Assembly (NCBI GenBank): GCA_024224995.1
Contig: JAAENB010000823.1
Location: 1 to 8,257, forward strand
Source: a bacterium
GTDB lineage: Bacteria; Spirochaetota; UBA4802; UBA5550
Direction: 5' to 3'
DNA length: 8,257 nucleotides
Shown here: positions 2,916 to 8,257 of the stretch, in pieces
Position numbering within the stretch: position 1 is the first letter of the stretch
Layout: the number at the start of each line of letters is the position of its first letter
The notes under the pieces: generated by a model
The model's database searches: none
The model's input: only the letters and a program-made list of their open reading frames with translations
Told to the model about the DNA's origin: nothing
Program-made: the position numbers and the translations under genes

Positions 2916-3044
2916 ATATCATTTCCCCCAAGTACATGTCAAGAACATTCCCCTGCGCCCAAAACTAAAAAGTATTTGCTTTTTAACACAAGATCAGCTC
3001 CTGTACCATTTATTATTAAATCTCTATACGATAATGGTGAGAAT

Positions 3045-3682: not shown

Positions 3683-4351
3683 TCAATCCAATAATGGCCG
3701 ATCCCAATGTTTATTCAGAGATCCATTTTTCTTTAACTGCGGACGCCAAAACAAATAATTGCCGACAAAGATTCCAATACGAGAGAATAAAGGAGTTAAT
3801 AATCCGCTGTTCGAATATTCGGGAGCAGAAAAACTGTTAAGTTCTTCCTGATCGAAATGACCACGTGTCCCCAGGGTTGTCCCCATTGCTTTAAACTTGT
3901 TTAAAACAGATCTATTTAAAGCATCGGGCTGGTGTCTGATTCCTTCGCATCCGCCTCGTATAATCATACCCATATTTTCTACGCCTAACTCTTTACACAG
4001 GTTAGCAAGCTGACGATCAAGAGCACGGGCATGACAGGCCTCTCGAAATCCGAACTGGCATAAAAAGCCTAATTTAACGGAATTATCCTTTCCAACAAAA
4101 TCATGTAAGCGGTATACCCATCGAGATGCGGAAGGTGTTAACCCGTACGTATAAAGAGGAAATGCCAGAAGAATAGCTTCTGATTCCGCGAATATTTTTT
4201 TTGCCGCTTCATCAGTATCAATTTCATTATGGTAAATTATTTCAGTGCTATTGTTATTAATCGAATTGAAGCCCTCACAAAAAGCCTCAACAACTATAGT
4301 GGTATTCCCTGTCTTTTTTCGTGGTGAAGCATTAATTATTGTTAAGTGCAT
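3683..4351 (-). CDS. NAD(P)H-dependent FMN oxidoreductase-like flavodoxin-fold protein without cysteine cluster
   Basis: A 222-residue flavodoxin-fold protein and the last gene of the tetR operon. It has a canonical FMN phosphate loop, N7-A-S-P-R-K-K-T-G-N-T17, and a ring-contacting loop F64-P-L-Y-T-Y-G-L-T-P73, so FMN binding is likely. It lacks the CX2CX2CX5-7C cluster of the iron-sulfur flavoproteins nearby. The C-terminal region (about 184-222) is a tail with hydrophobic and aromatic residues (LLTPLFSRIGIFVGNYLFW) that could pack on a partner or dock at the membrane. Its start lies inside the preceding gene (20-base overlap), with AGGAG eight bases upstream of the ATG, so translation is probably coupled. 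The end is convergent with the Crp-like gene, 38 bases away. The electron acceptor is unknown. Confidence 0.8.
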   Translation of the reverse strand: MHLTIINASPRKKTGNTTIVVEAFCEGFNSINNNSTEIIYHNEIDTDEAAKKIFAESEAILLAFPLYTYGLTPSASRWVYRLHDFVGKDNSVKLGFLCQFGFREACHARALDRQLANLCKELGVENMGMIIRGGCEGIRHQPDALNRSVLNKFKAMGTTLGTRGHFDQEELNSFSAPEYSNSGLLTPLFSRIGIFVGNYLFWRPQLKKNGSLNKHWDRPLLD

Positions 4352-4886
4352 CTATAAGCTCCTTATCATTTTTTCCTATTATGAATGTCCCGATATAATT
4401 TTTTTCTTTGTTTTTATTGTTTTTGTTTAAACAATAGGAGATATCTTTCAAACGCTGCTCATCTCTGCCGTGAAAATCTTCTATTAAAAGACCTTTTTTC
4501 CAGTTTAGATTATACCGGGGGTAATGAGCCGACTTTTTATTCTCATCAAGACGCATGTACGCGCACCCCATTGGGAGAAAGCGGTTAATTGCGGAAAGCA
4601 AGGTAGGACTGAGCATTCCAAACCGTACATCCGAAACCATTAACTGAATTTCACTCTCAATAAGCTTCTTAAGAATTTGCTTCATATCGTCTTTATGAAT
4701 ACATAAACCAGGTGTTTTGACCCAGCAGCCAAAGCAGCCAATACACTCTTTAATATCTTTTTCCCGCAAAAGAATAGATTCAACCTGGTGCCCCTGCTCT
4801 TTCAGAACTGCTTCCGCATCGGCAGCAGCAAGATCAACAGCTTTTTTTTTCCGGTCTGAGTTACCATTTAAAAGAACTATTTTCAC
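4332..4886 (-). CDS. Iron-sulfur flavoprotein-like protein with degenerate FMN phosphate loop
   Basis: A 184-residue flavodoxin-fold protein with a cysteine cluster at C48, C51, C54 and C62 (CX2CX2CX7C), in the same place as the 4Fe-4S cluster of Isf-family proteins. The expected phosphate loop (S-P-R-K-x-G-N-T) is replaced by N9-S-D-R-K-K-K-A-V, and the ring loop S-P-V-Y-F-G by S85-D-V-R-F-G90. FMN binding may therefore be weak, altered or lost. The start is GTG, fixed by a perfect AGGAGG six bases upstream; the GTGA overlaps the tetR stop by four bases. The three lysines 13-15 are encoded by nine consecutive A residues, a possible slippage site. It sits between tetR and a flavodoxin-fold gene that has an intact phosphate loop, which suggests the two proteins act together; that is an inference. 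Confidence 0.78.
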   Translation of the reverse strand: MKIVLLNGNSDRKKKAVDLAAADAEAVLKEQGHQVESILLREKDIKECIGCFGCWVKTPGLCIHKDDMKQILKKLIESEIQLMVSDVRFGMLSPTLLSAINRFLPMGCAYMRLDENKKSAHYPRYNLNWKKGLLIEDFHGRDEQRLKDISYCLNKNNKNKEKNYIGTFIIGKNDKELIDALNNN

Positions 4887-5452
4887 TTAGATCCTCCTTT
4901 AAACTTTTTATATGCCTGTATAATTATCGCTTCACCTGTTTCATATAGTATTTTTGAAATTGCTTCATCGGAATTATCCGGCAGCATATCATTCATAACC
5001 GCTTCAGCCAGCCCGGAGGTGAAGATTGCCATCTTGAGTAATAAATCTCTTAGTGTTTCATCGGGTAGATCTGAATACGGGCTGTCTTCTTTTAATTTTA
5101 TGAGCGACTCTTCTGTAAGATCATTGTAGCTTTTGTTCTTTGATTCATTTATTAAGATCCGGTAAAATATTGGCTCCTCTCTTGCGAATCGGACCTGTGC
5201 CAACCCCATATTGAGGAAAGAGTCATTACTATTTGTGCTCATTGCTGCTTGTTGGTATTTTTCAACTATGTTGTTTATAACATCCTTTTTTAATTCATCC
5301 ATAGAGGGATAAAATGAATAAATGGGTCTGCTCGACAAATTTAACTGTTTGGCAACTTCACGAGCAGTAATCATTTTCAAACCGCCCTCTTTAATTAATT
5401 CCAGAGCAGCTCGTATAATTTCTTCTTTTGATGTTTTATGTTCCGGCGCCAT
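4883..5452 (-). CDS. TetR-family transcriptional regulator
   Basis: A 189-residue repressor-type protein. The N-terminal three-helix DNA-binding domain spans about 8-55, with the helix-turn-helix in ITAREVAKQLNLSSRPIYSFYPSM (28-51), the TetR signature. The rest is helical and would form the ligand-binding and dimer domain (FTSGLAEAVMNDM, 144-156, is typical of a core helix). The frame is open to an ATG at 5497, but that codon lies between the -35 and -10 of the likely promoter, upstream of the expected transcript start, so the ATG at 5452 is preferred. This start has no ordinary Shine-Dalgarno sequence: ten G residues occupy its place one base upstream. It heads a three-gene operon with two flavodoxin-fold proteins and is divergent from a GNAT-oxidase-OYE set. 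Autorepression through the palindrome at 5474-5503 is likely. The ligand is unknown; an electrophile or quinone would fit the neighbours. Confidence 0.88.
   Translation of the reverse strand: MAPEHKTSKEEIIRAALELIKEGGLKMITAREVAKQLNLSSRPIYSFYPSMDELKKDVINNIVEKYQQAAMSTNSNDSFLNMGLAQVRFAREEPIFYRILINESKNKSYNDLTEESLIKLKEDSPYSDLPDETLRDLLLKMAIFTSGLAEAVMNDMLPDNSDEAISKILYETGEAIIIQAYKKFKGGSK
4893..4898 (-). promoter_or_regulatory. Consensus ribosome binding site setting the GTG start
   Basis: A perfect AGGAGG on the minus strand, six bases before GTG at 4886. It lies within the last codons of tetR (encoding Lys-Gly-Gly-Ser-Lys) and, with the GTGA overlap, indicates coupled or re-initiated translation from the regulator into the flavoprotein gene. 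Confidence 0.8.
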
Positions 5453-5453
5453 T

Positions 5454-5463
5454 CCCCCCCCCC
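5454..5463. repeat. Ten-base G:C homopolymer at the tetR translation start
   Basis: Ten consecutive C residues on the plus strand, so the tetR mRNA would read ten G residues, one A, then ATG. The tract occupies the ribosome-binding-site position of the regulator. Long G:C homopolymers are unstable by slipped-strand mispairing in many bacteria, so the length may vary between cells. It is the only G:C run of this length in the window, whereas A:T runs of 8-9 occur several times. Confidence 0.9.
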
Positions 5464-5473
5464 ATAGGTTACA

Positions 5474-5503
5474 GACGTTATGCAACACTAGTTGCATAAC
5501 GTC
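5474..5503. promoter_or_regulatory. Perfect 13-bp inverted repeat, probable TetR operator
   Basis: The arms GACGTTATGCAAC (5474-5486) and GTTGCATAACGTC (5491-5503) are exact reverse complements separated by ACTA. The site covers the spacer of the tetR promoter and the nearest parts of its -35 and -10 hexamers. A TetR dimer bound here would block RNA polymerase, giving autorepression. No second copy or clear half-site was seen near the rightward promoter, whose -35 is 60 bases away. Confidence 0.8.
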
Positions 5504-5505
5504 AA
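5477..5505 (-). promoter_or_regulatory. Leftward promoter of the tetR operon, overlapped by the operator
   Basis: On the minus strand there is TTGACG (-35, 5505-5500; five of six consensus), a 17-base spacer, and CATAAC (-10, 5482-5477; four of six). Transcription would begin near 5470, leaving a leader of fewer than 20 bases that consists mostly of the G tract. This placement excludes the upstream ATG at 5497 as the start codon. Confidence 0.6.
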
Positions 5506-5563
5506 CAATTTTTCTTTTTTTTATTTATTAAAAAATTTGAGTTATCAACCTATGTAAATGACA

Positions 5564-5592
5564 TTGCTTGTTTTTTTCCGTATTTTTATCAT
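5564..5592 (+). promoter_or_regulatory. Rightward promoter of the GNAT-oxidase-OYE genes
   Basis: TTGCTT (-35, 5564-5569; four of six consensus), a 17-base spacer and TATCAT (-10, 5587-5592; five of six) lie about 30 bases upstream of the acetyltransferase start codon. The remaining stretch 5504-5563 is AT-rich with T and A runs and could act as an upstream element for either direction. Confidence 0.5.
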
Positions 5593-5622
5593 AACAAGCA
5601 TAAATCAAATCGAGGATTATTT

Positions 5623-6054
5623 ATGGATATAAAAGATATAGAAATTAAAACAGAATGTTCGGGAGTAGATTGGCAGATTGTGTCAGATACATTGAAAAAC
5701 GTTGGTATGGCATATCATGACCCTGCCCTGCATAAAAAAGCTTTTGAAAACAGTTATGTCACTGTTTTTGTGTATCACAACAATGAGATGATCGGTTTCG
5801 GCAGAGCTCTTTCTGATGGAGCATATCAGGCTGCTATTTATGACATGGCGGTGAATCCAAATTTTCAAAAAAAAGGTCTGGGGAGTACAATAATAGAAAA
5901 CATTATGGCCCGGCTTCCGGAGTGCAGTATTATTTTGTATGCTTCACCGGGAAAAGAAGGTTTTTATCATAAAAACGGTTTCAGGAAAATGAAAACAGGC
6001 ATGGCTCATTTTGTTAAAGGTGAAGAAATGGCGGAAAAAGGTTTCACTGAGTAA
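5623..6054 (+). CDS. GNAT-family N-acetyltransferase
   Basis: A 143-residue single-domain GNAT enzyme that would move the acetyl group of acetyl-CoA to an amine. Residues 43-64 form the strand pair before the core (VFVYHNNEMIGFGRALSDG). Motif A runs YDMAVNPNFQKKGLGSTIIENI (73-94), with the pyrophosphate-binding Q82-K-K-G-L-G87. Motif B follows in LYASPGKEGFYHKNGFRKM (105-123), whose Tyr115 is the usual general-acid position. This form (GFGRALSDG, GKEGFYxKxGFRKM) is common among small GNATs of unassigned substrate, so the acceptor cannot be named. The start is supported by GAGGA six bases upstream. It is the first gene of the rightward set; the FAD oxidase gene begins 24 bases after its stop. 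Codons for K83-K84 sit in an eight-base A run. Confidence 0.88.
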   Translation: MDIKDIEIKTECSGVDWQIVSDTLKNVGMAYHDPALHKKAFENSYVTVFVYHNNEMIGFGRALSDGAYQAAIYDMAVNPNFQKKGLGSTIIENIMARLPECSIILYASPGKEGFYHKNGFRKMKTGMAHFVKGEEMAEKGFTE

Positions 6055-6078: not shown

Positions 6079-7452
6079 ATGATTCGACTACTGCGTTCTA
6101 ATAACACCTATTCCAAATCGTTGAAAGGAGACTTCAGCCGCAGCTTCTGGTTAGAAAACATGCCCGGGAATCCCGCTCCGCCGCTCCGAGGGTCTAACAG
6201 GTGCGATGTTGCTGTTATCGGCGGTGGGTTTACGGGTCTTTCAACGGCCTATCATACGCGGAAACTGCTCCCCGGATCGGCTGTTCGGGTTCTTGAGGCA
6301 AACAGATGCGGTTTTGGAGCCAGCGGACGCAACGGCGGCTTTTCATCACCACTTTTCGGAATGGGCAAAAGCCTCACTGCCTTGCTGTACGGCAAAGAAC
6401 AAGCCATGGCGGCCCATCACTATATGGAAGACGCTGTGGACTATGTGGATAAAATCGTTCATGAACACGCTATTGATTGCGATTACGAACGAAGCGGCAA
6501 CATGCTGGCTGCCACTACACAAGCCCAGGTAGAACGAATCGAACAGGAGTTACGCATCGCAGAGAGCTGGAATCTTAAAGGAATCGAAGCCCGGGACGAA
6601 GCCCCGTTGGCTGATGAGTTTCAAACAGGGCTGTACCGCCGCGGTCTGTTCCAGCGCCGCAGCGCATTGTTAAACCCGGCTCGCCTGGCGCGCGGATTGA
6701 TGCGAATCGCTCAGGAAACGGGTGCTATAATCCATGAGATGTCGCCGGTGCTCTCCATTGCGGAGGAACCGACGGGCTTTCGCATTCGCACCCCTGAGGG
6801 AGAGCTGCACGCAGACCGGTTGGTATATGCCACAAACGCGTACTCGGGCCTGTTTCCGCGCCTCGTTGCGAAACAAACTCCTGTTTTTCAGCACATCGTC
6901 GTTTCTGAGCCCTTAACGGACGCTCAACTAAAATCAATCGGCTGGAAATCCCGATGCGGATTGGAAGATGCCCTTAGCCTCATGCATTACTATCGACTAA
7001 CTGCCGATAACCGTATTTTAATGGGTGGGGGAAATATATCACCGGTCTTTGGCCGCAAACTCAATTATGACTCGAACAAAAAAGTATTCGCTCATTTAGA
7101 ACAGCATGTGCTCAATGTATACCCGCAACTAAAAGAATTGAAGTTTACCCATCACTGGGGCGGGCCTGTGTCAATTACCGTAAACCTGGTTCCTGTTATT
7201 GGATACCTGGGTCGTAAACGGCGAGCGCTTTTTTCACTGGGCTTAATGGGCCATGGTGTATCAATGGCCCCGTACAATGGGCTCTGCCTGGCTGAATTGC
7301 TGGCGGATCAAAAAAGCAAACGTACTGAAATGTTTTTTGTTGGCCGCCGGACGATTCCCTGGCCGCCCCAGGTGATCCGTTTTCCAATAACGCACGGAGT
7401 TCGTGCTTTGCTCAAGCTCGAAGACCGCTTGCGTTGGGCTAAGGGACGCTAA
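6079..7452 (+). CDS. FAD-dependent amine/amino-acid oxidase (DAO family, gamma-glutamylputrescine oxidase-like)
   Basis: A 457-residue flavoprotein of the D-amino-acid oxidase / glycine oxidase superfamily. The Rossmann dinucleotide motif is CDVAVIGGGFTGLSTAYH (42-59), with Glu73 ending the second strand to hold the FAD ribose. CGFGASGRNGGF (77-88) is the conserved second FAD contact seen in PuuB-like oxidases. HHWGGPVSITVNLVPVIG (358-375) and GLMGHGVSMAPYNG (388-401) are the C-terminal FAD-binding blocks. Such enzymes oxidise a C-N bond of an amine or N-alkyl amino acid; the substrate here is unknown. The start is fixed by GGAGG six bases upstream. The N-terminal stretch WLENMPGNPAPPLRG is typical of this subgroup. 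The coding sequence looks richer in G+C than its neighbours (39 of 60 at 6601-6660, against 21 of 60 at 5641-5700), suggesting a separate origin. Confidence 0.87.
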   Translation: MIRLLRSNNTYSKSLKGDFSRSFWLENMPGNPAPPLRGSNRCDVAVIGGGFTGLSTAYHTRKLLPGSAVRVLEANRCGFGASGRNGGFSSPLFGMGKSLTALLYGKEQAMAAHHYMEDAVDYVDKIVHEHAIDCDYERSGNMLAATTQAQVERIEQELRIAESWNLKGIEARDEAPLADEFQTGLYRRGLFQRRSALLNPARLARGLMRIAQETGAIIHEMSPVLSIAEEPTGFRIRTPEGELHADRLVYATNAYSGLFPRLVAKQTPVFQHIVVSEPLTDAQLKSIGWKSRCGLEDALSLMHYYRLTADNRILMGGGNISPVFGRKLNYDSNKKVFAHLEQHVLNVYPQLKELKFTHHWGGPVSITVNLVPVIGYLGRKRRALFSLGLMGHGVSMAPYNGLCLAELLADQKSKRTEMFFVGRRTIPWPPQVIRFPITHGVRALLKLEDRLRWAKGR

Positions 7453-7481: not shown

Positions 7482-8257
7482 ATGACGATTTTATTTACTC
7501 CCGCAAAAATAGGTTCAATAGAACTAAAAAACCGTTTTGTCAGTTCAGCTACGGTAGAATGCCTTGCTTCGGAAGATAACCGTCTCACGGAGAAATACTA
7601 CAAGGTCTATGAAAGACTGGCTAAAGGCGGTGTTGGTCTTATAATTCCGGGAAACTATTTTATTAACCCCATTGGAAGGGCTGTTGATAAGGTTCTCGTC
7701 ATAGACCGCGATGATGTTATTGATGACCTGCGAAAACTTACTGATATTGTTCACCGCTATGGAGCCAAAATTGTTGGTCAAATTAATCACGGCGGGCGGC
7801 AGTGCAATCCCGGCCTTATTGGTGAGCAGCCCGTGAGCCCATCGGGGGTGCGGGATACACTTAGCGGCATAAAACCGCGTCAAATGTCGGTACAAGAAAT
7901 TGAGGAAACGATTTCAGCCTTCGCCGGCGCAGCAGGCCGGATTAAAAAAACAGGATTCGACGGAGTACAAATCAACGGTGCTCATGGCTATCTGGTGAAC
8001 CAGTTCCTTTCATCATACACCAACCGGCGCAGGGACCAGTGGGGAGGTTCACTTGAAAACAGAATGCGCTTTGTAACCCGTATTTATGAAGAAATTAGAA
8101 ATGAAGTTGGTGCCCATTATCCGCTTATTATAAAAATAAATTGTGAAGATGCGATTAAGGGTGGCATTACCCTTGAAGAAAGTATTGCAATGAGCAAGAA
8201 GCTGGAAGCACTGGGATTTGATGCCATTGAAGTGAGCGGCGGGATTAAAGAGACCGG
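7482..8257 (+). CDS. Old Yellow Enzyme-family NADH:flavin oxidoreductase, N-terminal part (3' end outside window)
   Basis: 258 codons of an FMN-binding TIM-barrel oxidoreductase are present and the frame is open to the window end. Family landmarks in order: FTPAKIGSIELKNRF (5-19), the first strand; GGVGLIIPG (49-57); QINHGGRQ (100-107), the FMN-contacting His-Gly-Gly-Arg; VSPSGV (118-123); GFDGVQINGAHGYLVNQFL (158-176); NRRRDQWGGSLENRMRF (181-197), the family signature. At the substrate-anion site, where most members have H-x-x-H or H-x-x-N, this protein has N165 and H168, so the first His is replaced. Whether it is a single-domain enoate-reductase type or a longer form with 4Fe-4S and FAD domains depends on sequence beyond the window. 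The start is set by AGGA seven bases upstream, 29 bases after the oxidase gene; co-transcription is likely. Confidence 0.88.
   Translation, partial: MTILFTPAKIGSIELKNRFVSSATVECLASEDNRLTEKYYKVYERLAKGGVGLIIPGNYFINPIGRAVDKVLVIDRDDVIDDLRKLTDIVHRYGAKIVGQINHGGRQCNPGLIGEQPVSPSGVRDTLSGIKPRQMSVQEIEETISAFAGAAGRIKKTGFDGVQINGAHGYLVNQFLSSYTNRRRDQWGGSLENRMRFVTRIYEEIRNEVGAHYPLIIKINCEDAIKGGITLEESIAMSKKLEALGFDAIEVSGGIKET

Follow-up and report, generated by a model that had tools for sequence, protein, structure and literature searches.

What is the function of a run of ten G residues located immediately before the start codon of a regulatory gene? This question is raised by the window analyzed here, i.e., the whole stretch of 8257 nucleotides, whose plus strand carries ten C at 5454-5463, that is, on the mRNA strand, ten G followed by A (5453) and by the ATG at 5452-5450 of a tetR gene. 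The preliminary description, which had placed ten G one base before this ATG on the mRNA strand, is confirmed by the sequence. Read on the minus strand, the whole region is organized as TTGACG-TTATGCAACTAGTGTTG-CATAAC-GTCTGTAACCTAT-G10-A-ATG-GCG. The tract is the only G/C run of at least six nucleotides in the window (all others are at most five); the window has a GC content of 40.7% and includes eight A or T runs with a length of eight or nine. In a single 4-Mb sequence generated by a first-order Markov model of the window, three G/C runs of at least ten occurred, i.e., about 0.006 per window, and a run placed at random would have a probability of about 0.0065 of ending, on the right strand, at most 12 nt upstream of one of the nine complete-gene starts. 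Therefore, both the length and the place of G10 are above chance expectation. These figures are compatible either with selection or with a slippage-driven expansion of a pre-existing Shine-Dalgarno (SD) sequence. It should also be emphasized that G10 is long enough to be hypermutable by the criterion (about 8 or more G/C) of simple-sequence contingency loci.

The gene that follows the tract (4883..5452, minus strand) encodes a TetR-family regulator of 189 aa that carries a TetR_N helix-turn-helix domain (PF00440, E 5.1e-7, 29.8 bits versus a cut-off of 24); 43 PDB sequences match the TetR profile at E up to 0.001. Two flavoprotein genes lie downstream on the same strand. The first one, an NADPH-dependent FMN reductase-like gene (4332..4886; PF03358, E 5.7e-9), begins with a GTG that overlaps the tetR stop codon within an AAGTGA junction, and the second one is a flavodoxin-like gene (3683..4351; PF02525, E 1.1e-4, 22.4 bits, under the curated cut-off of 27). 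An overlap of these genes was found at both junctions: GTGA at 4883-4886 between tetR and the FMN reductase gene, and 20 nt (4332-4351) between the FMN reductase and flavodoxin-like genes. Furthermore, two FMN reductase relatives (P0008 and P0009) and two TetR relatives (P0004 and P0033) have in common longest contigs of 44,363 and 62,889 bases, suggesting that tetR and the FMN reductase gene form a conserved pair.

Upstream of the tract, the palindrome search revealed a perfect inverted repeat with 13-nt arms and a 4-nt spacer (5474..5503) that is a probable TetR operator. The window contains no other perfect palindrome with arms of at least 10 nt (spacer up to 10); in 495 kb of Markov control sequence, one palindrome with 13-nt arms and 18 with 10-nt arms were counted. 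The palindrome overlaps TTGACG-17-CATAAC, the best minus-strand promoter candidate obtained by promoter scoring from 5640 to 5401, with a predicted -35 box at 5500..5505 and a predicted -10 box at 5477..5482, the latter lying within the palindrome. The score of this candidate (7.8) is not exceptional, the best values obtained for 134 segments of 240 nt having a median of 6.6 and a 90th percentile of 8.9, and a stricter consensus scan of 5350-5700 detected no minus-strand promoter, neither box being retained. Transcription would start near 5470 and generate a leader of 18 nt, a weak prediction that nevertheless agrees with the leader of less than 20 bases previously proposed. Since the palindrome covers the best, although weak, promoter candidate, TetR probably represses its own three-gene operon through this putative operator. 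In autoregulated TetR-family operons, the TetR gene comes first and a palindrome lies over the promoter. Here also, tetR is the first gene and the palindrome covers the predicted promoter, and we infer that this arrangement corresponds to a TetR gene under autorepression.

Other roles were considered for these elements. The use of the tract as a promoter spacer, with the -35 box upstream and the -10 box downstream, was rejected, as this arrangement is found in none of the top 12 minus-strand candidates from 5640 to 5401. On the plus strand, the palindrome and a T-rich tract score as an intrinsic terminator, which could stop antisense RNA coming from the tetR region. Such a role was judged unlikely because the sole plus-strand ORF of at least 60 aa that reaches the palindrome is a 69-aa frame antisense to tetR. 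Searches for further copies of the operator in the window (up to 3 mismatches), for exact matches of the palindrome core in viral contigs and for Rfam families at gathering scores were all negative. Half-site matches with up to 2 mismatches amount to 14, including the two arms, for an expected number of 7.8 +/- 2.5 (4 of 200 shuffles reach 14).

The position of the tract relative to the coding sequence depends on the start codon of tetR. The protein translated from 5452 begins with MAPEHKTSKEE, and an M(A/P)P N-terminus is found in all 16 relatives compared, i.e., P0002-P0006 and 11 of 19 further matches, the starts of these relatives being gene predictions and not measured N-termini. The three TetR relatives to which an organism name is attached (P0002, P0004 and P0033) come from metagenome-assembled genomes of Spirochaetes or Spirochaetia, and the window therefore probably originates from an uncultured spirochaete; the data give no indication of a host association. 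Overall, the comparison supports the 5452 start. The preliminary description had also considered that translation could begin at 5497, in which case the tract would be a frameshift site inside the coding region. The frame from 5497 is indeed open across the tract. Moreover, another ATG abuts the tract (5463..5465, minus strand) and, although it is not in the tetR frame at n = 10, would be in frame if the number n of G residues were a multiple of 3 (n = 9 or n = 12), in which case changes in tract length would alter the reading frame or the N-terminus. However, none of the 16 relatives carries the extension from 5497, the one that would result from 5465 is also absent from the relatives compared, and our pairing model finds an SD at neither ATG. 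Furthermore, the palindrome includes the codon at 5497, which is also located upstream of the predicted RNA start. The 5497 start was therefore rejected, and a frameshift switch operating from either codon appears extremely improbable.

With translation starting at 5452, the tract occupies the position of a ribosome-binding site. Its strength was estimated with a simple, ungapped model of pairing to the 16S tail, in which the anti-SD letters, the spacing penalty and the energy-to-rate factor are general values and not measurements from this organism. GGGGGG from the tract pairs with the 16S tail at -7.7 kcal/mol, the second best value of the ten genes of the window, after GGAGG of the FMN reductase gene starting at 4886 (-10.4); the remaining genes range from -0.6 to -7.0. 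Among them, the gene 2385-2915, which starts at 2915, also has an all-G SD according to the model (GGGGG at 2925-2929, minus strand, -4.9 once the spacing term is included). When the tract is shortened to six G or less, the model finds no SD in the tetR leader, as expected from the earlier claim that this leader contains no other one. According to this computation, G-C and G-U pairs allow an all-G sequence to pair with CCUCC; therefore, the ribosome would bind the G run itself, on a short transcript predicted, weakly, to start about 18 nt before the ATG and probably controlled by the binding of TetR to the palindrome over its own promoter. The tract is thus best read as an all-G SD, a reading that is well supported in silico, and we consider it likely that G10 is the SD element of a probably autorepressed tetR-flavoprotein operon. 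It should be kept in mind that the length of ten is the reading from one assembled sequence, on one contig of 8257 bases, and that homopolymers are error-prone, so the tract could be a sequencing or assembly artefact or have another length. This appears improbable, as both flanks are coherent, with the palindrome on one side and the conserved MAPEHKT start on the other, and as tetR would have no SD found by the model with six G or less.

The comparison with divergent TetR relatives points to the same function for this position. The genome scan identified relatives of tetR at 12 loci in named genomes, all from Bacillota and with 27-32% identity. Inspection by eye showed GGAGG at the same position in each of the 11 Butyrivibrio loci, the remaining Bacillota locus having GAGG. 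Since these relatives carry ordinary SDs at the position of the tract, a ribosome-binding site is expected there; the locus studied here differs from them by its G homopolymer, a G/C run of at least eight being found in none of the 12 loci, all of which are only about 30% identical. Plasmid matches are also distant (4 records, 27.7-33.0% identity), and a scan of viral contigs with the TetR and FMN_red alignments found no close relatives.

Viral contigs nevertheless provide information about the motif itself. G10-A-ATG was found in 77 stretches, compared to 60 and 56 with two permuted endings (binomial p 0.037), and the run is exactly ten in 43 of these 77 stretches. ATGs were considered start-like if they open at least 60 codons and follow an in-frame stop located at most 30 codons upstream. 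They account for 15 of the 77 ATGs preceded by G10-A versus 437 of 4563 control AATG from the same viral loci (one-sided Fisher p 0.006); with the permuted endings, a start-like ATG within about 12 nt was found in 4/60 and 2/57 cases. However, ATGs located behind GGAGG or AGGAG in the same loci are start-like more often (146/349), indicating that G10 is a weak marker of start. Overall, an all-G SD is plausible and recurrent, yet it marks a start less strongly than a standard SD.

If the tract is an SD, its length should influence the translation of tetR. As the binding site is a long homopolymer, this length probably changes by slippage, as inferred from other bacteria. A scan of n = 2-16 gave model totals of -1.3 for n = 7, -4.6 for n = 8, -6.2 for n = 9, -7.7 for n = 10, -8.2 for n = 11 and -8.7 for n = 12 to 16. 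Using a factor of 0.45 per kcal, the corresponding translation rates relative to n = 10 would be 0.06 (n = 7), 0.25 (n = 8), 0.51 (n = 9), 1 (n = 10), 1.25 (n = 11) and 1.57 (n = 12). According to the model, translation would thus be set stepwise, being about halved for each G lost near n = 10 and down to n = 8, then falling more sharply, and gains of G would matter little, with a levelling at n = 12. The predicted behavior is that of a rheostat with a floor near seven G and a ceiling at about twelve, not that of an on/off switch. The earlier proposal that tract length alters ribosome binding is therefore retained in silico, but the term "switch" is too strong for an effect that changes by degrees and reaches its plateau at n = 12. 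When autorepression is represented by a toy loop, the loss of two G lowers the repressor to 0.34-0.56 and raises operon mRNA 1.4-2.2-fold; negative autoregulation would thus turn the translation steps into modest changes of operon output. In the case of a strict translational coupling of the downstream genes, the lower translation of tetR would partly or wholly offset this rise in mRNA.

The tract may simply be an expanded SD, devoid of any selection for length tuning. A GGGG-type SD would have been lengthened by slippage and tolerated since longer runs bind ribosomes equally well, its length having no adaptive role. Several observations are consistent with this scenario: the predicted plateau from n = 12, the GGGGG SD of a second gene of the window, the recurrence of G10 before ATG in viral contigs and the presence of GGAGG at this site in distant relatives. 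However, shortening below nine G is predicted to be costly, and the length of the tract would therefore matter. Taken together, we give this scenario somewhat less than an even chance of being correct.

Whether the all-G SD could instead have been kept as a hypermutable element has to be considered in the light of known variable tracts. In Treponema pallidum, PMC7864442 describes 17 measured poly-G tracts of at least 8, of which 76% vary clearly and four show minimal or no variation. According to the annotated positions that it gives, the tract of tp0617, outside these four, is at -1, that of tp0381, with up to ten lengths, is at -7, and that of tp0986, one of the four minimally or non-variable ones, is also at -7. 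The promoters of tprE/G/J, tprL and tp0126 carry poly-G tracts as well, and the tpr and tp0126 tracts are described as acting on the promoter activity of putative outer membrane proteins. The locus studied here resembles these cases by a G tract of at least 8 just upstream of a gene in a spirochaete, but differs from the tpr and tp0126 promoter tracts since its tract, located within the predicted leader, would serve as the SD of a repressor gene. In Mycobacterium tuberculosis, a one-base insertion in a homopolymer of the espR 5′UTR raised the output of a translational reporter with no detected mRNA change (PMC11898584). This tract likewise belongs to the leader (only predicted in our case) of a regulatory gene. 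However, it is located 144 bp upstream of the gene and is proposed in that report to act through leader folding, whereas in our case the ribosome-binding site would consist of the tract itself. In Campylobacter jejuni, homopolymer mutations in flgR/flgS also affect a regulatory system; they concern poly A/T tracts of less than 7 repeats, compared to G10 here, and the review calls them not reversible (PMC8355987). The earlier opinion that such an element would be unusual because it concerns a regulator is thus weaker than stated, a 5′UTR homopolymer that tunes the translation of espR having been published.

These precedents bear on the possibility that the tract is a selected phase-variation locus, in which a hypermutable switch or rheostat is preserved and generates heritable heterogeneity in repressor level. 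Its length and position recall those of the variable poly-G tracts of T. pallidum (PMC7864442) and of the espR 5′UTR tract (PMC11898584), and single-base changes are predicted to have effects. By contrast, the predicted effect is graded, reaches a plateau and is buffered by autorepression in the toy model, ordinary SDs are present at the 12 loci from distant relatives, and no contingency phenotype is evident for the target, a flavoprotein operon. A selected locus of this kind is a real possibility but an unlikely one.

Because of the T. pallidum and espR precedents, the presence of a poly-G tract at the start codon of a spirochaete gene is not new in kind, and the same is true of the tuning of a regulator's translation by a homopolymer. 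Their combination, in which the homopolymer itself would form the SD of a probable autorepressor, was not met in a narrow search of partly available literature, and the available portions of PMC7911514 and PMC5084427 report no poly-G SD on a TetR gene. If the length of the tract varies, hypermutability would reside in the very ribosome-binding site of a repressor that belongs to a feedback loop; slippage would then tune the set point of a circuit instead of switching a surface protein, and poly-G contingency loci would extend from Treponema surface genes to a metabolic regulator of an uncultured lineage. In the most elaborate form of this proposal, which we regard as quite doubtful, a hypermutable all-G SD would provide heritable gain control on a negative-feedback repressor, slippage tuning TetR translation in roughly two-fold steps and leading to population-wide diversity in a redox flavoprotein operon of a spirochaete-like bacterium with no known host. 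The locus is an interesting candidate for such a switch but not an established one, and if its length is invariant it would be an example of an all-G SD.

The remainder of the window calls for some additional remarks. The gene 1203-2279 encodes a protein of 358 aa whose N-terminus looks signal-like on inspection by eye; neither Pfam nor NCBIfam gave a match to it at E up to 0.001. Five flavoprotein-type genes are present within 8 kb (466-1035, 3683-4351, 4332-4886, 6079-7452 and 7482-8257), corresponding to FMN_red (twice), flavodoxin-like, DAO and old-yellow-enzyme types, the latter being cut by the end of the window. The best NCBIfam match of the DAO-type oxidase (6079-7452) is a putative aminophosphonate oxidoreductase, below the cut-off. 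The gene encoding this oxidase has a GC content of 52%, compared to 41% for the window, and is possibly of foreign origin.
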